Source: a virus
Virus record (IMG/VR): IMGVR_UViG_3300000576_000013
Coordinates: 2,386 to 29,928 of that record
Strand: one strand, 5' to 3'
Length of the DNA: 27,543 nt
Shown here: positions 5,605-25,717 of the stretch, one piece after another
Numbering within the stretch: position 1 is the stretch's first letter
Layout of the letters: every line of letters starts with the position of its first letter
Made by a program: the position numbers and the translations under genes
The notes under the pieces: generated by a model
What the model was told of the DNA's origin: nothing
The model's input: only the letters and a program-made list of their open reading frames with translations
Database searches by the model: none

Positions 5605-8600
5605 TCGAATGCAATCCCTCTATAATCAAGAACTTTTGGAACATTTGCAACATTATCAGACAACAGATCAATTCGTATTGCAAATGAGCGATATCCAGAA
5701 TAAGTTCCAGTGTCGTTAGTATATTCAACAACACCGTCATTTTTAGCAGAAGCAGGTATTTCATATACAAATTCCTTGAAATCACCTGTGTTCGACGTGC
5801 TGGAAAACAGATCAGCACCAGAAATTGCTTCAAGTTCAATCCACGGATTGTCTCTTATTGCTACAGGGTCCGAATCATTCTTTAGGCGAACATATGTTTT
5901 TATATCAGTCCCCGGTGGTCTATAACCAGTTACATATAATCTAAAGTCTTCTGCATCAAATCCTTCTTGAAGCTCAACTCTTTTTGAAACGTACTTTGAA
6001 GTAGTTTCTGGATCATTTGTGATCTGATAAATGTAAGCAAACAATTGAGCAGTTTCAATGTCTACAACAGGAGTTGTTGTGGGTATATTTTCTTTTTCCA
6101 AGGTAAGTATTAGTTTCAAATTCTTATCTTGATCTACATCATTTGATTTACTGTATACTATACAACCTTTTTCATTGAACTCTTTATTTGCTGCAAACTC
6201 AAACTCTTTGACATAAGGTAAGTCTTGTTGCGCCAAAGGATCTATTGCTTTGACTGCTATTTTCACATCAGTATTAGAATCTGTTATCCGATTGATCATA
6301 GACTGTATATAACTAAGTTCTATATTATCGACAAAATCTATTTGAGCTGTAGCACCACTATCTATACCACTGATAACATCTGCGGATTCAAAAACTCTAT
6401 TTTCACGAGCGGAAGATTTCTCTAGAATCAACAGGTCTGGTTTTCTCGGATTGAAATATGAAACTTCTCCAGCAACAACTGGCTGTGACTGGAAAGAACC
6501 AGAAAACGATGGCAGTCTATCCACGACAACTTCAGTATCGGATATAACATTGGTAATTCTAAATAGTTCTTCATCTCCTTGTGCATTTTCAACATAGAAA
6601 TAATCGCCGGTGCTATACGAAGACAGCCCAGAACCTGTCACCACATTTGTTTCAGTTGATAGATTCACTGCAAATGTAGAAGTTCCTCTTGTTGCATAAA
6701 CAAGTTCTTCATTTCTGAAAGATCCTGATGAGCTATCGAGTCTTAGAAATTCGTAATCAGTAGTTTCAAGTTCTACAGTACCACTGTTCACATTGAAGTT
6801 ATAGCGATATAAATCAAATTTGATGTCTTCATCTTGATATGAAGTCCAAGCTCTGTTGTTAGTCGATGTGAACAAGACACCATCACCCCAGTCAGCATTC
6901 ACCGGTGTTCCAGTAATCAAATCTGTTTCGCCGACCTTTGTTGTGAAGATCAAATAATCTGGATCGTCAGAATCTGGCTGAATGACAACTGAGTATTCTT
7001 TTTCGGCATCCAATCTGACAGGAGCATCAAAAACAACAGATGTTGCTATAGAGGCGTCATCCGAAACATTTACTTCAGTTGATCTCAGATGTTTTTTCCC
7101 AAACGGCAAAATCTCCCATGCAGGATAACCATTTTCTACTTCGCGAATTTGTATGCTGACTCCTCTTATAGTACTTTTGCGTTTGAAATACAAGTCAATA
7201 CCACTTACATATAAAGCATCAGATCCTTGAGTCATACTTTCTTTGACGAAGAAAGTTTGAGCAAGAGGACATTTACCACCTTCTCTAGTAGTTTCCGTTC
7301 TTACTGTTGTGTTTCTGTTGGTGACTGTTCTTGTCGTTCTGCTTTCTAGAACATCAATGTCTGGAAATCTTGTTGATTGTGTCAAACCAGCTTTTTCGAC
7401 ATTAAAGTTATAAGCATTATATTTTAGTTTGCCTAGAGAAGCAGATGCACTATCAATATTTTCAAACGAATCAACATCCGTGATCACAAGTTCTCTTTCG
7501 CCGACAATAAACGTATTTTCTGGTATTGTGAATATAGCAAAAAGTTCGCCATTTTCATTGGTTCTAATAGCACTACCTTCAACACCAGATCCGAAAACTC
7601 TTTGCCCTGCCTGAGCCTGCTCTACATCTTCAAAATAACGACCGGGTCTAACATGCTGATTTACATCGACTTCATCAAAGAAGAAATAGTGGCGAGTATT
7701 GGGACGAAGTCCATACATTTCTATTTGAATTTTTCTTGATCTAATGAAAGGCTGGAATTCAAAGTTCGTAACAAAATCTCCGATGAAGTTTTCTTCGACT
7801 TCGCCTTCCGTGACACTCAATTCTCTGAAAATATCTTCAAAAACTCTTGTTGTATTTGTTGTCGTTGTGGTTGTGGTAGTTGTTCTTCTTCGTTTACCAC
7901 CACTAGTTTCAGTATTTGTCGCAATACTTCTTCTTGTATTAGAAGCTATCAAATTTGTTTGTTGACTTGTTAGAGGAACAAATTCGCTGAGAGCTTCTGT
8001 AAAATCTATAAATGGCTGAGCCAAGTCAATATCGAGTGATAGCGGTGTGGTAACAGTATCATAAGCAACATCGTAGTTAGGTGTTAGAGCACCAACACCT
8101 TTGAAACTATACACATTACTCGTGCAAGATCTAAAGTTGGTGGCATATTGTTGCTTCAGGAATCTGACAATTCTGTTTGAAGATAGTGTGGTTACAGGCC
8201 CAATAGAATCAGTCCCTTCAGTATCAGTTATTCTCAGATCCAAAGGAAATTGTTTTACACTTGGTTTCAGAGAAGTCTCAGACGAATCAACTGATGCATT
8301 GAAATTTGCGTCAGAAACATCCGCAATTGAAAGATCTACAAATGGATCTACTATAATCCCATTTTTGAAGCGATTATTACCATCTTCATCTTGAATGAGA
8401 AGATTTGCAGTTGATGTTTCGAGCGCGGTCAGAGTTACATAGTAAACCAGACGATCTAGCTTTCTAGATATCTTATCTATGTCTTTCATAGTATAAGTAG
8501 AAACTGTTTTGCTTGTTAGAGAAACAGTCTCGCCTCTGCGGTTCAATCTAAAAGCATCTTCCGGTGAAAGTAATGGAAAGCCTGGCACCACTATTTCAGC

Positions 8601-17779: not shown

Positions 17780-20497
17780 TTATCCTGTTTTTCCGCCGTT
17801 TGGTCCGCGTAGTGAATAATAGTTGAACCTACCTCCGGAGTAGTTATACCCTCTGGTATCCACGTGAACAAAACTGTTATATGAAATGAGACCGGTAAAT
17901 CCTGCTTGATATGCTAGATTCATAAATCTTATTTGATCGGAACGGCTGGATATACCTCCACAATCAAATGCCTTTCCCGCCATGTGATATGAGTTTCTAG
18001 CTCCACCTACTGACCTGTTTGCTTGTGGATTTCTATAAGCACTATTTATCTGTATCTGCCTACCCCAAGCCCTAGCAAGAGCAAATAACTTTCGCATAGA
18101 ATCTTCATCCACACCGCCATAAGGTTTTATTAGAAATCCAGCAGGTCCTGTTATTGCTCTTGCAGTACCTGGTGTTAGTGGTGCATACTTTACTTCTCTA
18201 GTTCCGGCAAGTGATTCTTCAAACGTAGGAAACTGATAATCAGATGGTAATGGTGGTAATACTCCAACAGAGATCCCAGCCCCTGGATCAATACTTCTTT
18301 GACCTGCTGCATTTACGAAAGGTGATGTTATCGTTGCGTCAATACTTCCTGCTTGTTGCATTGCCGCCAATCTCGTCTGAGTATCATAACGAATAGCACC
18401 TGCTCTAACAGCTCTCAATGTGGTGTTATTTCCAGTGCCAGCAAGCAACCTGTTTGCTGCTTGAAAGTTATTGATCATTTCTTCAATTGGTTTCGTGGCA
18501 TCTTCGTATATTCTTTCTATTTCTCCAGCCATTTTACAAAATCTTAATGCGACATATTCCACTTCTTCTTTGTTCTTCTGTCTGAACTTTTCTGATGATT
18601 GAGCGATCATCCCTTTCAATGAATCCTTCATTTCTTCTGTTACGGCATCACTTGCAGCATTTTTAGCAATTGCAATCAAGCCAGCCATTTTAGCATAACT
18701 AGATTGCATGTTGAAGTGATATCCATTGTTTAAAGTTTCGGGTGAAAACATCTCTGCCTTGGACTTCAGGTTGGCAGCAGCTTGATCAACAACAGAAAGC
18801 AATTGATCAGCTGTCTGATCCAAAACACCGACGGCTGCAATACCCCGAATTCCATTTTTGATTGATCTCACCAAATCAATCAAGTCTGTTTGCAACAGTT
18901 TTGGAGCTTCTGCCGAAAGTTCTAATGCACCCGTAAACGATTCTTCAAGTGATTCCTTGTGTTTGTCACTGATTTCTTTTGCCTTAGGCTTATCATCTAC
19001 AGCAACCTCTTCTGCCTCTTCAAGAGCATCTTCAACTGTCTCACGATATTCGTCTTCGTTTTCAGCAAAGTCTCTGAAAATATCTTCTACTGCTTCACTA
19101 CCGAGATCTACGATCTGATCCAATTGCTCAAAAAGACTTTGAATATCAACTGGTTTTAAGCCGCCGACCAATGCTTGAATAGATGAAAGCAACCCCGATG
19201 CTGTAGATATGATTTCTAAAATCTTGGACAAGCCAAAATCTCCCGCACCGGGGCCCGCACCTAAGTTGTTTGCGACCGATGAAAGATTTTCAGCAATATC
19301 ACCAACCTTGCTATTTGGTTCTTGAGCCGATGGAAAATCTATAAAATCACTGAAAGCAGAAGAGTTGGCATTCAAATGTGGTATGAATATATTATTCACA
19401 TAAGATTCCACATCAGTTGTTGCGGTGTTGTCAATATACGTTTGTAGTGCATTAGCATCATCATCGTCCATCACCCCATCTTGATTTATATCCCCGAGTG
19501 GTTTGTTAGTGGATTGCAAAATTGCTTGAAATCGATTGTCCTCAGCTTCTATTGCATTTCGAATCAGCTCAAAGTTCCAATTGATTGATAATGAACTTTC
19601 AGCTTGTGTATCTCCATTCCCCATCACTGCACTCAAAACATCCTTAAACTGCATGATTATACCAAATGCAGATGCCAAAAGACTGAATGCACTTTGAAGA
19701 TCTGAAATGATATTGACTGAGTTTTCTTGTGCTTTTTGCATCAACGAGATCAGCTCTTGAACATTTCCTAGAACTTCACCCACATTAGGATTGATAAGCC
19801 CAAGCACGTTTTGATAGTTTTGAAGGAACTCAGATGACGGCCCGCTCAAGTCTCTTTGAGCCTTTACAGGTGCAAATATGTCTTCTAATAGAGAACAGAC
19901 AGAACCCATGATACTGGAACCAATGCCGAGTGAAGACAGAAATCCTTCTAAGAGATTCAGAATGTCAAATGTATTGGTTTTTACATTGTTTGCAAAAAGT
20001 CTTGGATCAAACCCATTTTGAGTTATGAAAGTTTTAGTCTCAGCCGATGAGATAGTCCCTGACAGAAGTCTTTGATTCGTGCTCGGAAATAACGAACCAA
20101 ATGATCTAAAAGAAGACGGACGGATCTCTTTGAGAGTTTCTAAGACAGTTTCTTCTGTAGTGTTTGGAAACAGCTGTCTGTTTTCGTCAACAAAATCAAC
20201 AACATCTCCAACTTTATTGATTCTTGTTCTTGCAAATTCAGTGGAAAGTTTCTGGGGTATTATTCTTTCTGCAAGCCTTCTTTTGACGGAAGGTGTGATT
20301 GTTTTTGTTTTTGCAATGCCATTTTGTATATTCTTGTAGTTTCTTATTTGTCTATTCAAAACTCTTGTATTGAAGTTGAGAATGATCGTATCTTCTTCAC
20401 TTTGATCACCCAAAGGAAGAAAGTTCAGTTCCCCTGTAATCTGCTCAAGACGATTGATAAGATTTTCTTCGTATTTGCAATCTATAAAATCTGGCAA
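17780..20497 (-). CDS. Structural protein with C-terminal M15 zinc peptidase domain (TTG start)
   Basis: This is a 905-aa protein. The last about 107 residues form an M15-type D-Ala-D-Ala peptidase domain: SYHMAGKAFDC gives His838 and Asp845, and FVHVDTRG gives His878, the expected zinc ligands (HxxGxAxD...HVD). Such enzymes cut peptide cross-links in peptidoglycan. Residues 180-300 are hydrophobic/helical. Residues 336-347 form a dockerin/EF-hand-like loop (DINQDGVMDDDD). Residues about 480-540 are very rich in Glu/Asp/Ala and likely helical. The start is TTG at 20497, directly after the gp5 stop, with AGGAGA at 20503-20508 and a 5-base spacer. The position between spike and gp25 suggests a virion protein of the hub region, probably helping the spike through the wall. 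T4 has no direct counterpart. Confidence 0.8.
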   Translation of the reverse strand: MPDFIDCKYEENLINRLEQITGELNFLPLGDQSEEDTIILNFNTRVLNRQIRNYKNIQNGIAKTKTITPSVKRRLAERIIPQKLSTEFARTRINKVGDVVDFVDENRQLFPNTTEETVLETLKEIRPSSFRSFGSLFPSTNQRLLSGTISSAETKTFITQNGFDPRLFANNVKTNTFDILNLLEGFLSSLGIGSSIMGSVCSLLEDIFAPVKAQRDLSGPSSEFLQNYQNVLGLINPNVGEVLGNVQELISLMQKAQENSVNIISDLQSAFSLLASAFGIIMQFKDVLSAVMGNGDTQAESSLSINWNFELIRNAIEAEDNRFQAILQSTNKPLGDINQDGVMDDDDANALQTYIDNTATTDVESYVNNIFIPHLNANSSAFSDFIDFPSAQEPNSKVGDIAENLSSVANNLGAGPGAGDFGLSKILEIISTASGLLSSIQALVGGLKPVDIQSLFEQLDQIVDLGSEAVEDIFRDFAENEDEYRETVEDALEEAEEVAVDDKPKAKEISDKHKESLEESFTGALELSAEAPKLLQTDLIDLVRSIKNGIRGIAAVGVLDQTADQLLSVVDQAAANLKSKAEMFSPETLNNGYHFNMQSSYAKMAGLIAIAKNAASDAVTEEMKDSLKGMIAQSSEKFRQKNKEEVEYVALRFCKMAGEIERIYEDATKPIEEMINNFQAANRLLAGTGNNTTLRAVRAGAIRYDTQTRLAAMQQAGSIDATITSPFVNAAGQRSIDPGAGISVGVLPPLPSDYQFPTFEESLAGTREVKYAPLTPGTARAITGPAGFLIKPYGGVDEDSMRKLFALARAWGRQIQINSAYRNPQANRSVGGARNSYHMAGKAFDCGGISSRSDQIRFMNLAYQAGFTGLISYNSFVHVDTRGYNYSGGRFNYYSLRGPNGGKTG
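17783..17786 (-). promoter_or_regulatory. Shine-Dalgarno deciding the gp25 start
   Basis: AGGA on the minus strand lies 10 bases before ATG 17772, at the end of the 905-aa gene. It favours the internal start over the ATG at 17871. Confidence 0.55.
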
Positions 20498-20498
20498 C

Positions 20499-23400
20499 TT
20501 AATCTCCTAATCTTCTAATTTGATTGCCGCCAATTGTGACAATATCATCTTCTCTGCTATCTATGGGTGTTGATTGTATTTGAACTGACAATCCTTGTAT
20601 TTGTTCGCCTGACCTCAGAGTTTCTATATTACCGTTTGGCAGTTGAACAAGAGCTCTTTGATTACCTGGAGCTCCACTTATTCCCAATAATAAAAAATCT
20701 GATGAAGATACCGCAGGGGTGCCCAATTCAACTCCAAGTGAACCTGTAGAAGCACTTCCAAAATCTTGAGCAAATTCCATACCTTGATCTCCAATTATGC
20801 CGTCTGAAATCTTATTTCCCATGTCCTTGGGATCTGGCGAGCTTGGATCGGGTGGTGTTGGTTGCCCGCTAGGGTCTGATTTGGGGGCATCACCTTCTGG
20901 CTGAGGACCGCCTGTCGCGCTCCCTGGCGGTGTTGCATCCGTTGCTTTTGTAGTCGGTGATTCTTCATTATTATCTCCACTTTCTGCCTCGTCAAATTGT
21001 GCTGGTTCTATAATCTGTTTTGTTTCTACTTCATTTCCTGAATCTGCACCCGTACCCTCAGAAGCTTCGTTTGCACCACCGTTAGCCAATTGAACAATAT
21101 CATCAATGAAAACAGTAGAGCCTCTAATATGAGCATTTGCACCCGAAAGTCTCGCATCCGATCCCGCCTTTAGATTCAAAACAGCACCAGCATCGACATA
21201 TCCAGCACCTCCGGATTTAAGATCAAACTCAGATTCACCTTCAATCTTCACGTTTTGACCCTTGACATTGACATCATTAGATGCTTGCACAAACAAGTCC
21301 CCTCCTTCCGAATCAAATGTCACGTCTCCTGTAGCACCAATATTTGCGTCTCCCCCATCAGCCTTAATGTTGACATTCTGCGAACCTCTGATGTACATAT
21401 TCCTAGATTCTATGCCCATGTTATCAGCTGAAAGCAGATTCAAGCTTCCAGATTCGGAACCGATAAGCATTTCACCCTTTGACTTCAGGTTGAGTGTGCT
21501 TTCTGAATTGAACGATATCGACGATTCTGTTGAGTTGAATCTTATTGCGCCCGCCGATTCAACAGAAACAGTTCCTTCGTTTGCTTTTAGAAATAGATTT
21601 TCTTCCGGATTCATATAGACACTTCCTTCAGACTTCAGATGCATGCTGCCCTCCTGAGAGTGAAGATACAACCCCTTTATGCCAGTAATGTTCATGTCTT
21701 CTTGTGCACCAAGTCTTATTGACTTTGATTTCATGTCAATTGTTTCACCGGAGTCAAAATAGATGTGTTTTCCGGTGCGGATGTTCAAGTTTTCGACATT
21801 TGATTCAATACCAAGAGAAGCACTTCTGATGTCAGTCCTATCCGCACCATTCAACTCAATCCTTCTTGCTCCACCTATTTGAATATTCCCATGGACAATC
21901 TGCTTGTAGTTTCCTTCAATCTCTTCTATTTTATCTCCCTTCACAAGAACATGACTGTCACCTTCAATAGTGACGATATTATTACCACCGATATAGACGT
22001 GATGGTTCCTATCGTTTACATGATAAGCATCACTCATGTTTTTGTGTGTGGTGCTTGTACCTGTGATCTGTATATATGAACCATCGCGATGCCATATCAT
22101 GATTCTTTCGCCACCGGGCGAATCGTCTAGTTCGATTGAATGGCCAGAGGCGGTTTCTATTACTCTGTTGTATGGATATCTAGCCGAATATCCCGATGGA
22201 GGTTCATCCCATGTCGTGGTGCATGCAGGATCCGCTGACGGTGTTGCATAGCCACTATAAGGTTCGTTTACAGTTCCTTCTATTGGTCCTGATGAATCAT
22301 CTAGTTGGATCAGCTGATCTCTAAGTTCTGCTATTTCTTGTTGAAGTTCTTCTATTCTTTCTTGTGTTTCTTCGGTTCTTGGTTGTGGCCCGTTGATCAA
22401 TTCTTCAAGTTCTGCTTCTTTTTCTCTTATCTGTGTTCTGATTTGATCTGCTCTACTAAATCTCTGTTCATCTAATTGTGCTTGTTGAACTCTATCGGGT
22501 TGTGAAGGATCTTCAAAGAGTTGGGGTCCTCCTTGTTGCTGCGAAAAATCAAGACCTTGCGCGTTTTCTATGTTTCTAAAAACTGAAGAAGTAGATTCTG
22601 CTCTTTTTGCAAACTGTTGTGCAGTATCAGCTTCCGAAATGGCAAATCTAGAATCCGTGAAATATGGCCTAAGATTATTTTGAGTAAAATATCTTGAAGC
22701 CTCTACCGGATCACTAATATTTCTGAATACATCAAAACTAGAACCTCCAGACCATTCTCTTGACAATTCTTGAACTAAAAAAGAATAGTTTGCTTCGTCA
22801 CTTCTGGGGTCCAAGTTTCTTGATGAAGAAAAAGATTCGAAGTTATCTCTTCTTGTGCCCGTCCATTGTAGCCAGCCAGCACCACCTCTTCCTGCTATGG
22901 GAGCAATTTCCTGAAAAAATCTAAAATTGCCTGTTTCCTGTAAAATATTTCCCGCCACGGCAGAGGCAGCCGCAGGTGTCATGTTCAAATCTCTCTTAAG
23001 TTGCGCTGCAATGTTTGTTGCTTTGGTCACTCCATCACCCGGTACTGTAAATCTCCCTCGACCCACATCACCTGTCTCACCAATGTCATTGCTCCAAGCA
23101 TTACCATTGCCTACAGCATTATGACCAAATGCACAACCACCTGCAATCGGAATGTTTCTAACACGATTTACTTCCAATGAGTCATTATATGTCTCATTCA
23201 AAAACTCACCAGTTGCTAATCGTGACATTGGGGACAGCCCAAGATCTCTTGGTCTTGAGCCTTGTGATTCTCTGTCATAGTTTTCAGCAGGAACAGACCC
23301 CCAGCCAGTTGTCGCTGGATCAACCAACTCAGAAGCTTGTGCTGGAATCAGACCAATGATCATTGGCTGCTGGGCATCTCTACCATCAATGAAGAAACCG

Positions 23401-23615
23401 AACACCCAAGCATTCAATGGTGGTGGTGTGAAGTTCACATCATGATTTCCAATGATTAATGTTGCCCAAGGCAAGTCTTCGGTTGGTATATCCTGATTCG
23501 AACCATGAACACCAAATGCACGAACGCGAACACGACCTTCAGCACGAGGGTCATTACGATCTTCAACAACACCAACAAAAAACATTGGTTGAACAAAACC
23601 TAGTCCACTATCCAT
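20499..23615 (-). CDS. 5: gp5-like central spike with OB fold, tail lysozyme and beta-helix
   Basis: The protein has 1038 aa from ATG 23615; T4 gp5 has 575. Residues 1-94 are the gp5/VgrG OB fold (GRVRVRAFGVHG, PMIIGLIPAQ). Residues about 195-345 are a phage-tail-lysozyme domain (AVAGNILQETGNF with probable catalytic Glu227, then GWLQWTGTRRDNFESF), not the T4 lysozyme type. Residues 373-437 are a strongly charged coiled coil. Residues about 490-845 are a long beta-helix rich in Gly/Asn/Ser/Ile alternation, starting with the typical HSIELDDSPGGERIMIWHRD. Residues 848-935 form an acidic and Pro/Ser/Thr-rich linker, and residues 970-1038 a separate small beta-rich domain. It should sit on the gp27-like hub, puncture the outer membrane and digest peptidoglycan. 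ATG 23615 lies 1 base after the hub stop. An upstream ATG at 23660 is rejected because it overlaps the hub gene and lies before AAGGGG. Confidence 0.9.
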   Translation of the reverse strand: MDSGLGFVQPMFFVGVVEDRNDPRAEGRVRVRAFGVHGSNQDIPTEDLPWATLIIGNHDVNFTPPPLNAWVFGFFIDGRDAQQPMIIGLIPAQASELVDPATTGWGSVPAENYDRESQGSRPRDLGLSPMSRLATGEFLNETYNDSLEVNRVRNIPIAGGCAFGHNAVGNGNAWSNDIGETGDVGRGRFTVPGDGVTKATNIAAQLKRDLNMTPAAASAVAGNILQETGNFRFFQEIAPIAGRGGAGWLQWTGTRRDNFESFSSSRNLDPRSDEANYSFLVQELSREWSGGSSFDVFRNISDPVEASRYFTQNNLRPYFTDSRFAISEADTAQQFAKRAESTSSVFRNIENAQGLDFSQQQGGPQLFEDPSQPDRVQQAQLDEQRFSRADQIRTQIREKEAELEELINGPQPRTEETQERIEELQQEIAELRDQLIQLDDSSGPIEGTVNEPYSGYATPSADPACTTTWDEPPSGYSARYPYNRVIETASGHSIELDDSPGGERIMIWHRDGSYIQITGTSTTHKNMSDAYHVNDRNHHVYIGGNNIVTIEGDSHVLVKGDKIEEIEGNYKQIVHGNIQIGGARRIELNGADRTDIRSASLGIESNVENLNIRTGKHIYFDSGETIDMKSKSIRLGAQEDMNITGIKGLYLHSQEGSMHLKSEGSVYMNPEENLFLKANEGTVSVESAGAIRFNSTESSISFNSESTLNLKSKGEMLIGSESGSLNLLSADNMGIESRNMYIRGSQNVNIKADGGDANIGATGDVTFDSEGGDLFVQASNDVNVKGQNVKIEGESEFDLKSGGAGYVDAGAVLNLKAGSDARLSGANAHIRGSTVFIDDIVQLANGGANEASEGTGADSGNEVETKQIIEPAQFDEAESGDNNEESPTTKATDATPPGSATGGPQPEGDAPKSDPSGQPTPPDPSSPDPKDMGNKISDGIIGDQGMEFAQDFGSASTGSLGVELGTPAVSSSDFLLLGISGAPGNQRALVQLPNGNIETLRSGEQIQGLSVQIQSTPIDSREDDIVTIGGNQIRRLGD
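20503..20508 (-). promoter_or_regulatory. Shine-Dalgarno deciding the TTG start of the 905-aa gene
   Basis: AGGAGA on the minus strand overlaps the last codons of gp5 and sits 5 bases before TTG 20497. There is no in-frame ATG for about 195 codons after it. Confidence 0.75.
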
Positions 23616-23616
23616 A

Positions 23617-25083
23617 TCAAAATCCCCTTGGATTGTTTTGGTCGAAGTTAGAAAAATCAAACCGTCTACTTACTTCGCTCCAATCTCGTTTGATTAGAGT
23701 GTATGTATTATGCATTTCTTCGTGCTCCATAATATAAGTTACTGATCTGACTATATAACTACCAGATAATCGTTTATTTTCTTCAAATGTCCCTGACTCG
23801 TTATCATCGGCAAATACAAACTTTTTTACTGATAAGTCTATTATGTCACCAGCACTGATATCAAGTCTCCCCGGGCCTTTAGCAGTGACAGTGATGTTCG
23901 AAATATGCTTAGAGTATGCCTGTCTGTTCGAAATGATTTCAGCATAACGAGTAGCAGCTTGCATTGAATTCTCACCAGACTTTTCTTCGGGTGTGTAGTT
24001 TTGAATCACAAGCCATTCCTTTTGAACATCTTGTTCACCTCTATGAACAGAATTGATGAAGTTTTTAGTGTGTCTGTCATCCACGACTTCTTGTGATGGC
24101 TTGACATCAAAATATCTATTCCGCTCCTTGAAATAATCATACTGATTTAGTTCGGGGTCTAGCAAGTTTAGTCTACGCGACAAAATATCCAGTTCGTATA
24201 CTTTATTTCTATATGCACCATTATAGATATCGTCGAAGCTATTCAGTCTTCGAGTATTTTCAAGCACTTCTATGTTATCTCGTTGAGCTTCAAAGTATTC
24301 AAGTGTATTTGGAATGGCGTCCAAATAAGTCAAATCAAAAATACGGTCATCGTCTTGTTCGGCGAGTTCAAACAGTCGTTCGTCTGTGACGTAGTGGTAT
24401 GACTTGAAGTTTTCAAAGAAACGAAAAGTGCAAGAAGGGCTATTATCAGAATAGGAACGCTTGGCCAAAAATGACATTGCCTCTTCTGGTCTCATTTTAG
24501 GAATCCAACAACGAATGACATCATCAGTTTCTTCTATTTCAAGACCTTTGACCAAATCCGTTGGTATGGTTCCTATTTTTTCTGGACCACCATAATATTC
24601 ATTGAACAATTCCCACACTATGTCAGAGACTTTCTTATCTTTGAACGATCTTATAATCTCATATGTACCCGCAACAAATGATTGATACGATATAAAATGT
24701 ATATCATATGTCACCGCATCGTTGACTTCCTTTGTTTGTACGTTGTCAATCTTATAGATATATCCAGCGAACCTGAATGGTTCTGAAACTTTGCCTGTAT
24801 CAACACCTCCATTTTCATTTATCATTTTCGAATCTGCTATTTCAAAAATAATCAATTCTTCACCTCGAAGTGGATCTCTACCTTCATCATCATCACCATC
24901 GAGAAGACCAACGGAATCCAAAAGTCTTGCTGAACCGAAAATGGTTTCGCTGTCAATTGACGTATTCAGTGTAATTGCAGGTATTAGAGCAGTAACGTCA
25001 ACATCACCAATGTTGGAAAACGATGATGTGATAGTCGCTTTTTGTAGATTGTAATATGTATGGTTGACAAAACTTTGGCTCAT
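23617..25083 (-). CDS. 27: gp27-like baseplate central hub protein
   Basis: This 488-aa protein has the hub layout of the gp27/gpD/VgrG N-terminal type. A first barrel-like part holds PLRGEELIIFEIAD (residues 71-84) and FAGYIYKIDNVQTKEVND (105-122). A helix-containing part follows (DKKVSDIVWELFNEYYGG, 149-166; WIPKMRPEEAMSFLAKRS, 193-210; CTFRFFENFKSYHYVTDERL, 218-237). A C-terminal barrel includes GPGRLDISAGDIIDLSV and GSYIVRSVTYIMEHEEMHNT. In T4 the gp27 trimer binds the gp5 trimer and continues the tail tube. The gp5-like gene follows directly, which supports the call. Primary sequence similarity to T4 gp27 is low, so this rests on motif pattern and context. The ATG at 25083 overlaps the stop of the 83-aa gene (ATGA). 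Confidence 0.78.
   Translation of the reverse strand: MSQSFVNHTYYNLQKATITSSFSNIGDVDVTALIPAITLNTSIDSETIFGSARLLDSVGLLDGDDDEGRDPLRGEELIIFEIADSKMINENGGVDTGKVSEPFRFAGYIYKIDNVQTKEVNDAVTYDIHFISYQSFVAGTYEIIRSFKDKKVSDIVWELFNEYYGGPEKIGTIPTDLVKGLEIEETDDVIRCWIPKMRPEEAMSFLAKRSYSDNSPSCTFRFFENFKSYHYVTDERLFELAEQDDDRIFDLTYLDAIPNTLEYFEAQRDNIEVLENTRRLNSFDDIYNGAYRNKVYELDILSRRLNLLDPELNQYDYFKERNRYFDVKPSQEVVDDRHTKNFINSVHRGEQDVQKEWLVIQNYTPEEKSGENSMQAATRYAEIISNRQAYSKHISNITVTAKGPGRLDISAGDIIDLSVKKFVFADDNESGTFEENKRLSGSYIVRSVTYIMEHEEMHNTYTLIKRDWSEVSRRFDFSNFDQNNPRGF
23624..23629 (-). promoter_or_regulatory. Shine-Dalgarno deciding the gp5 start
   Basis: AAGGGG on the minus strand sits 8 bases before ATG 23615 and overlaps the last codons of the hub gene. 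It selects this ATG over the in-frame ATG at 23660. Confidence 0.8.
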
Positions 25084-25331
25084 GGACGAAGTGACCTTTT
25101 GAACTCTTCAACAACTTGGTTTCGATAGATTTTATCAATCAATAGGATGTTTCGTTTGTTTTCGTTCTGCTGTTTTTCGTAATCATAAAGACGAACAGCC
25201 TTGAAATCTTCCGGAATGATTTCTCTGATGACAATCCTTCTTCCATTTTCAGTCAATAGAATGCTCTCGTCTTCTTTTCTTAGAAAAAGTGTTCTGAACG
25301 ATTCAGGTGAAATTCGTACAATATCTACCAT
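25080..25331 (-). CDS. Small 83-aa protein of unknown function in the baseplate operon
   Basis: I do not recognise this protein. It is charged (many Arg, Glu, Lys) with no membrane segment or signal peptide. The first half looks like short beta strands (ESILLTENGRRIVIREIIPE), and the second half is probably helical (YDYEKQQNENKRNILLIDKI). ATG 25331 follows the gp53 stop by 2 bases, and the TGA overlaps the hub ATG as ATGA. The tight coupling on both sides supports a real gene. Because it lies between gp53 and the hub, it may be a minor baseplate component or assembly factor, but that is inference. Confidence 0.8.
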   Translation of the reverse strand: MVDIVRISPESFRTLFLRKEDESILLTENGRRIVIREIIPEDFKAVRLYDYEKQQNENKRNILLIDKIYRNQVVEEFKRSLRP

Positions 25332-25333
25332 TT

Positions 25334-25717
25334 TTAGTCATCAACCTCTCTAAAATAGTATACAATATTATCTGTTCTTGTTTCATCCTGACCCCAACGA
25401 AGAACATCAAATCCAGTTCTCCCAGAAAGTTCCGAATACTTGTCAATGAAATACTGATCAAATTCAACGTCACTCATCGGCCATTCATAATATGGATCTG
25501 TGATGTTGTTTGCGAGAAGAACTAACCAAGTATCGTCAACAGAACCATAATAGAGTCTTGCAATATCTTCTGGTTTTTCACCTTCTCTGACTGTGAATGG
25601 CAAAAAGATATACGGATCTTTCAGAACAGAGTCTCGAATCTTGCTCCTGCGAGTGATATTACGAACTCGCTTGTCCTGATACTGAATCAGTGGATAGTTT
25701 GTAAAATATCTTGACAT
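25334..25717 (-). CDS. 53: Baseplate wedge subunit gp53
   Basis: This is a 127-aa protein of the gp53 family (T4 gp53 has 196 aa). A LysM-like segment at residues 41-80 (VREGEKPEDIARLYYGS, DDTWLVLLANNITDPYYEWP) is the family's diagnostic region, equivalent to T4 KGSPRPEELANAIYGNPQLY and VLLMCNDNYDPYYGW. gp53 completes the wedge and joins neighbouring wedges around the hub. The shorter length comes from a truncated C-terminal part. The ATG at 25717 follows AGGAAA with a rather long spacer. The gene lies 13 bases after gp48. Confidence 0.92.
   Translation of the reverse strand: MSRYFTNYPLIQYQDKRVRNITRRSKIRDSVLKDPYIFLPFTVREGEKPEDIARLYYGSVDDTWLVLLANNITDPYYEWPMSDVEFDQYFIDKYSELSGRTGFDVLRWGQDETRTDNIVYYFREVDD

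Follow-up and report, generated by a model that had tools for sequence, protein, structure and literature searches.

The window, that is, the whole stretch of 27,543 nucleotides that was analysed, belongs to a viral record consisting of a 29.9-kb fragment. It carries a T4-like baseplate cluster, in which the spike gene is accompanied by genes for a tail cap, gp53, a gp27-type hub, a protein with an M15 peptidase domain, gp25 and gp6. Among phage records, Sinorhizobium phages phiN3 and phiM12 come closest to the gp6 protein of the window (38.6%). The features of the spike and of its two neighbours are listed below, where HR stands for the PilP/GspC homology region and L009 is a related spike from another viral contig.

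23617..25083, minus strand: gp27-type hub (PHROG 350, E 6e-39), present in relatives whether or not they have the HR domain; a candidate internal partner
20499..23615, minus strand: T4 gp5-type central spike (baseplate hub/tail lysozyme), 1038 aa (open frame, PHROG 430, T4 gp5 structures)
23301..23615, minus strand: N-terminal OB domain, residues 1-105 (weak Pfam Phage_base_V match)
22647..23021, minus strand: mid-slot lysozyme, Phage_lysozyme2, residues about 199-323 (Pfam PF18013, E 7e-13)
22317..22514, minus strand: probable coiled coil, residues about 368-433 (sequence and several weak coiled-coil family matches)
21114..22220, minus strand: trimerisation domain and triple beta-helix, residues about 466-834 (matches to the T4 gp5 C-terminal domain; 61% identical to L009)
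21084..21113, minus strand: end-of-helix tip motif VFIDDIVQLA, residues 835-844 (same motif at the helix end in relatives)
20721..21083, minus strand: post-tip acidic Pro/Ser/Thr-rich linker, residues 845-965 (composition; modelled part mostly pLDDT <50; 32% identical to L009)
20502..20720, minus strand: PilP/GspC-HR-like C-terminal domain, residues 966-1038, 73 aa (model, structure comparisons, PilP profile, weak PilP_fam and T2SSC matches)
17780..20497, minus strand: protein with a C-terminal peptidase M15 domain, downstream of the spike (Pfam PF08291, E 3.5e-17), present in relatives whether or not they have the HR domain

The spike matched PHROG 430 (baseplate hub subunit and tail lysozyme) with E 4e-60 and, by sequence, the solved T4 gp5 structures with E 1e-22 to 1e-20. 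We took its start as the ATG at 23615, which gives 1038 residues, while the listed open frame opens at 23660. It has the OB domain, trimerisation domain and beta-helix of T4 gp5, together with a lysozyme in mid-position and an adjoining gp27-type hub gene. The chain of T4 gp5 stops at the helix tip, whereas the window spike has a longer helix, the 121-residue linker and the extra domain, its chain running on for 194 residues beyond the tip motif. These residues do not exclude it from the T4 gp5 type, since most of its family has them too.

Two neighbouring genes deserve a comment of their own. The M15 protein is 905 aa long with the peptidase at its end; relatives keep it too, often in a much shorter form, and judging from its sequence it is putatively another baseplate enzyme, besides the spike lysozyme, that acts on the wall. 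Baseplate wedge protein gp53 is encoded by two adjoining genes (127 and 83 aa, window positions 25080-25717), one matching the front of PHROG 232 and the other a part further on. Among the 51 loci in which both parts were found, counted without deduplication, gp53 is split in 22 and a single frame in 29, so that the split looks like a lineage feature.

The segment beyond the helix tip

A sequence-only reading of this DNA had described about 90 acidic residues after the beta-helix, followed by a small domain of about 70. The open frame, the composition, the AlphaFold2 model and a counterpart in L009 all indicate that the segment is real; the length given for the domain held (73 aa), whereas the linker turned out to be longer, with 121 aa that include 24 D/E, 36 P/S/T and 14 ILVFMWY residues and carry a net charge of -19. 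In the AlphaFold2 model of the last 91 residues (mean pLDDT 67.7, pTM 0.50), obtained from an alignment to which L009 was the sole added relative, the domain forms six strands mostly at pLDDT 65-84 and the linker part lies mostly below 50. The L009 domain, modelled on its own (pLDDT 63.5), was predicted to have the same fold; the domain models and the profile used below rest on these two sequences. Continuation of the beta-helix through the segment, which would have contradicted the earlier description, is ruled out by the AlphaFold2 model, which gives a disordered linker and a six-strand fold of its own. As modelled, the spike C-terminus is laid out as tip, disordered acidic linker and independently folded domain.

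Spike-bearing relatives were collected from viral contigs (80 loci of 92 relatives), and L009 was the only one among the 80 in which tblastn and HMM searches found the HR domain. A second scan gave 28 newly numbered loci, 13 of which were read, 13 being already-read contigs and two (L171 and L176) being left out; in the 13 loci read, the domain appeared only in L161, which is L009 again. No further relative came from domain-profile scans of viral contigs and genome contigs, and tblastn of the last 190 residues against 50,697 phage records returned nothing. Two apparent matches were discarded: L082, the only other match in the window-domain scan, is the opposite strand of a collagen-like Gly-rich frame on an unrelated contig, and L083 is the L009 contig itself.

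The window and L009 segments, linker and domain together, are 33% identical (BLAST E 3e-11, a two-sequence comparison). Identity to L009 is 86% in the OB domain (measured over residues 1-180), 61% in the helix, 32% in the linker and 42% in the C-terminal domain, in which 13 of the 23 codons for identical residues have changed and the core motif RALV.LP.NG.I...R.G has been kept. Conservation of the linker and domain in an independent relative, with codons changed, argues against chance or artefact and rules out a translated non-coding tail. A mid-slot lysozyme common to window and L009 was also considered and dropped, as this stretch is only 31% identical.

Taking as close spikes those with a readable C-terminus and an N-terminal region at least 73% identical to that of the window, the HR domain occurs in two of seven (window and L009) and is lacking in L001, L002, L003, L150 and L156. 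Had all homologues ended in this way, the domain would simply be the usual tip of such spikes; the survey of spike tails rules this out, and on this point the earlier description stands. L002 was read across a frame break in its helix (about 7980-8060), with ambiguous bases nearby, which is likely an assembly fault. A Pro-rich stretch of the linker is found as PATPPDRSAP in L009, PAAPPDRHPP in L002 and PASPPTQSIP in L156, that is, also in relatives that end soon after it. The HR domain therefore looks as if it had been added beyond the usual tail of the family.

Fold of the C-terminal domain

Structure comparisons placed the predicted domain among the HR domains of type IV pilus and type II secretion proteins. 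For the window domain, the top 11 entries were all of PilP, GspC, PulC, GspB, LspC or Dot/Icm type (Z 7.2 to 4.6), with the first non-HR row at Z 4.1 and the next at 2.9. Apart from the best match, GspC as found in its complex with GspD (3oss; Z 7.2, 2.0 A over 57 residues), these entries comprised various bacterial PilP proteins together with LspC, GspB, PulC and a Dot/Icm chain of Legionella. The top 11 entries for the L009 domain again belonged to the HR superfamily (Z 8.1 to 4.2, the eleventh, 2lnv, being level with the first other row at 4.2), the best being 3jc8 (Z 8.1, 2.1 A over 67 residues) and 3oss (Z 8.1, 2.1 A over 60 residues). The GspB/OutB structure 4wfw was among the matches of both domains. 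With Foldseek, rows 1-7 for the L009 domain were PilP, GspC or Dot/Icm proteins (probability 0.90-1.00) and the next row fell to 0.30; since Foldseek E-values all exceeded 0.04 for both domains, the case for the fold rests on agreement and not on a single number. Z scores of 7-8 alone can reflect a common arrangement. Both predicted models show the topology of HR/PilP domains, with two small beta-sheets and six strands, and no clear match was found in a viral structure library.

Profile comparisons pointed to PilP more than to GspC. They were made with hhalign against 30 PilP and 30 GspC sequences, and each of six comparisons had 200 column-shuffled profiles as its null; the 60 controls were the best matches of two Pfam searches, so typical PilP and GspC proteins are over-represented among them. 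The joint profile of window and L009 scored 32.7 against PilP domains (probability 86.5; best of 200 shuffles 19.9) and 20.3 against GspC, which is within the shuffle range (maximum 21.8, 95th percentile 13.9). For reference, the PilP and GspC sets compared directly gave a score of 22.1 (probability 26.4). Taken singly, the window domain matched PilP weakly (probability 12.7, shuffle maximum 9.1) and the L009 domain barely exceeded its shuffles (79.6 against 79.1).

Searches with curated models gave E 0.039 and 15.0 bits for pilP_fam (NCBIfam TIGR03021, cut-off 34.65) and E 0.17 and 12.2 bits for T2SSC (Pfam PF11356, cut-off 27), and with both scores under the cut-offs we do not file the domain as a PilP or GspC protein. 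Sequence searches of the PDB, made with the domain alone and with the profile, returned no PilP or GspC, and none of the enzyme families compared with the domain matched it. We consider it very probable, from the models and their comparisons, that the C-terminal domain has the HR/PilP fold. The likeness consists of the predicted six-strand fold (2.0-2.1 A over 57-67 residues in the best rows) and the PilP profile similarity, whereas the genetic setting differs: instead of an envelope protein in a pilus or secretion operon, we find the terminal domain of a phage spike whose gene lies in a baseplate cluster. The proposal of a separate small beta domain resembling periplasmic secretion or pilus domains is thus borne out by the fold comparisons and the PilP profile, while the generic SH3 likeness suggested with it gives way to GspC-HR/PilP as the closest fold.

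Contents of the post-tip position

Spike tails were surveyed in the 71 of 80 relatives whose stop lies inside the contig (9 open ORFs were dropped), which together with the window amounted to 60 unique spike ORFs. Some of these needed a looser second pattern for the tip motif, and tails of ORFs without the motif were read by eye. Essentially all readable spikes have a further tail after the helix. The sequence-only reading had taken a segment beyond the tip as a departure from T4-type spikes, a view in need of correction, as a post-tip tail is the rule in this family and often carries a lytic enzyme.

Seven spikes without a mid insert (L014, L016, L017, L018, L019, L026 and L031) bear an endolysin or tail-lysozyme domain after the tip. 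One of them, L026, is the spike of the cultured Sinorhizobium phage phiN3. An eighth, L165, has a SleB-type hydrolase there (E 2e-11). These eight belong to the same spike family as the window and likewise have a domain fused after the tip, but theirs is a peptidoglycan hydrolase and they have none in mid-position. The distance from OB to trimerisation domain, measurable in 51 of the 60 spikes, was 269-384 residues in 10 (window included) and 43-71 in the other 41, and no post-tip hydrolase was seen in the tails, as read, of the 10 with a mid insert. Window and L009 have the enzyme in mid-spike and the HR domain at the tip.

The domain that L018 carries after its tip and the mid domain of L007 are homologous (34%, E 7e-19), and the L014 post-tip domain is related to the latter too (E 2e-13). 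One and the same enzyme can thus precede or follow the helix, and the content of the post-tip position is exchangeable. That the post-tip position acts as an exchangeable passenger slot seems to us highly likely. Other tails in the survey include that of L175, whose stretch after the tip (after 7165) has no Pfam match and was not counted as a hydrolase, and those of L047, L058, L076 and similar short relatives, which share a conserved post-helix tail of about 75 residues ending in KRWWH.ITS.MRSDDDE-like motifs.

The VgrG proteins of type VI secretion systems are related spikes, and their C-terminal extensions are passengers fused beyond the tip; one of them, VgrG3cp, reportedly carries an extension that targets peptidoglycan. 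The window spike has the layout of such evolved VgrGs, a separate domain fused beyond the helix tip. The VgrG passenger is an effector enzyme, whereas the window passenger resembles, going by its modelled fold, a scaffold domain that binds secretins. From VgrG, spikes bearing C-terminal passengers are already known, and a PilP/GspC-type passenger on a phage spike is apparently new: our literature search, which had most subscription journals outside its scope, found no report of one.

Possible roles of the HR-like domain

In the passages available to us, the HR domain of GspC is described as binding the N0 domain of the secretin GspD by strand pairing (PMC3169554), PilP as binding PilQ N0 likewise (PMC3441751), and OutB-HR as binding OutD N0, with HR domains of GspC, PilP and OutB type all reported to bind the N0 domain of their cognate secretin (PMC9239104). 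The reading we favour, at a probability of about 0.35, is that the C-terminal domain of the spike binds the N0 domain of a host secretin and serves as a periplasmic anchor. Anything carried ahead of the tip would be the first part of the spike to arrive in the periplasm, where N0 domains sit, and the hydrolases found at the same place would also have to enter the periplasm to act. The HR domain of GspB/OutB, an envelope anchor acting through secretin N0 in the parts of PMC9239104 that bear on it, offers a parallel, with the difference that GspB/OutB is a bacterial inner-membrane protein. The domain and linker diverge more than the OB domain and helix, as expected of a host-facing part; such fast divergence fits weak constraint too. 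Against the anchor counts the fact that five of the seven close spikes do without the HR domain.

In a spike trimer, three HR-type domains would extend on flexible tethers beyond the tip, and contraction would carry them, along with the tip, past the outer membrane. In the periplasm they may anchor, most likely by pairing with a host secretin N0 as PilP, GspC and GspB do, the candidate complexes being those of type IV pili, type II secretion or the like. Such an anchor would fix the tail tip, or direct it to a site at which the envelope has already been bridged; the cell wall would meanwhile be opened by the lysozyme in mid-spike and by the M15 peptidase encoded downstream. More tentatively still, the tethered domains may act as PilP/GspC mimics that seize a host secretin by the periplasmic face of its N0 ring; the pilus or secretion machine of the cell would then anchor, and perhaps guide, entry.

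The main rival, which we hold to be unlikely, is that the domain folds back onto the phage's own gp27-type hub, which would stow the tether or keep the baseplate locked before contraction. N0-type domains are part of T4 gp27, Mu gp44 and VgrG according to passages of PMC3093366 and PMC3169554, so that gp27-type hubs would offer an N0-like docking site, and the hub gene adjoins that of the spike (23617-25083). Nevertheless, the window hub is 63% identical to that of L009, with the domain, and 65, 61 and 56% identical to those of L001, L002 and L003, without it; this similarity across both kinds of relatives speaks against a special link between hub and domain. Besides, a helix of about 370 residues would set the tip far from the hub.

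We give a similarly low probability to binding of the cell wall or another envelope component, which would keep the spike near peptidoglycan for its lysozyme, the HR fold being reused without secretin binding. The slot otherwise holds enzymes that act on peptidoglycan, and small beta domains are commonly reused. Yet OutB, in the passages of PMC9239104 concerned, binds peptidoglycan by a C-terminal extension and not by its HR domain, and the passages on HR domains that we consulted contain no peptidoglycan-binding HR domain.

It appears less probable that the domain serves as an adaptor, its most obvious cargo being the M15 peptidase encoded downstream or a PAAR-like tip, in the manner of effector-loading C-terminal extensions of VgrG. 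The M15 gene directly follows that of the spike, and post-tip fusions carry enzymes in relatives; still, L001, L002, L003, L006, L007 and further relatives have the same gene after the spike but no HR domain, and no PAAR was found in the 29.9-kb record, itself a fragment. Finally, a leftover of evolution under weak constraint and with no important function, which would suit the absence of the domain from five of seven close spikes and its lower identity to L009 (42% against 86% for OB), is improbable given the retention of the core motif despite the changed codons and the same fold still predicted from both sequences.

Wall digestion is the main activity known of a phage spike once it has crossed the outer membrane. 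A fold of secretin partners beyond the tip suggests that a specific docking step in the periplasm may be added to this picture. For annotation, the post-tip region of gp5-type spikes may be treated as a passenger slot, occupied by a hydrolase, an HR domain or a short tail, in parallel to the C-terminal extensions of VgrG.
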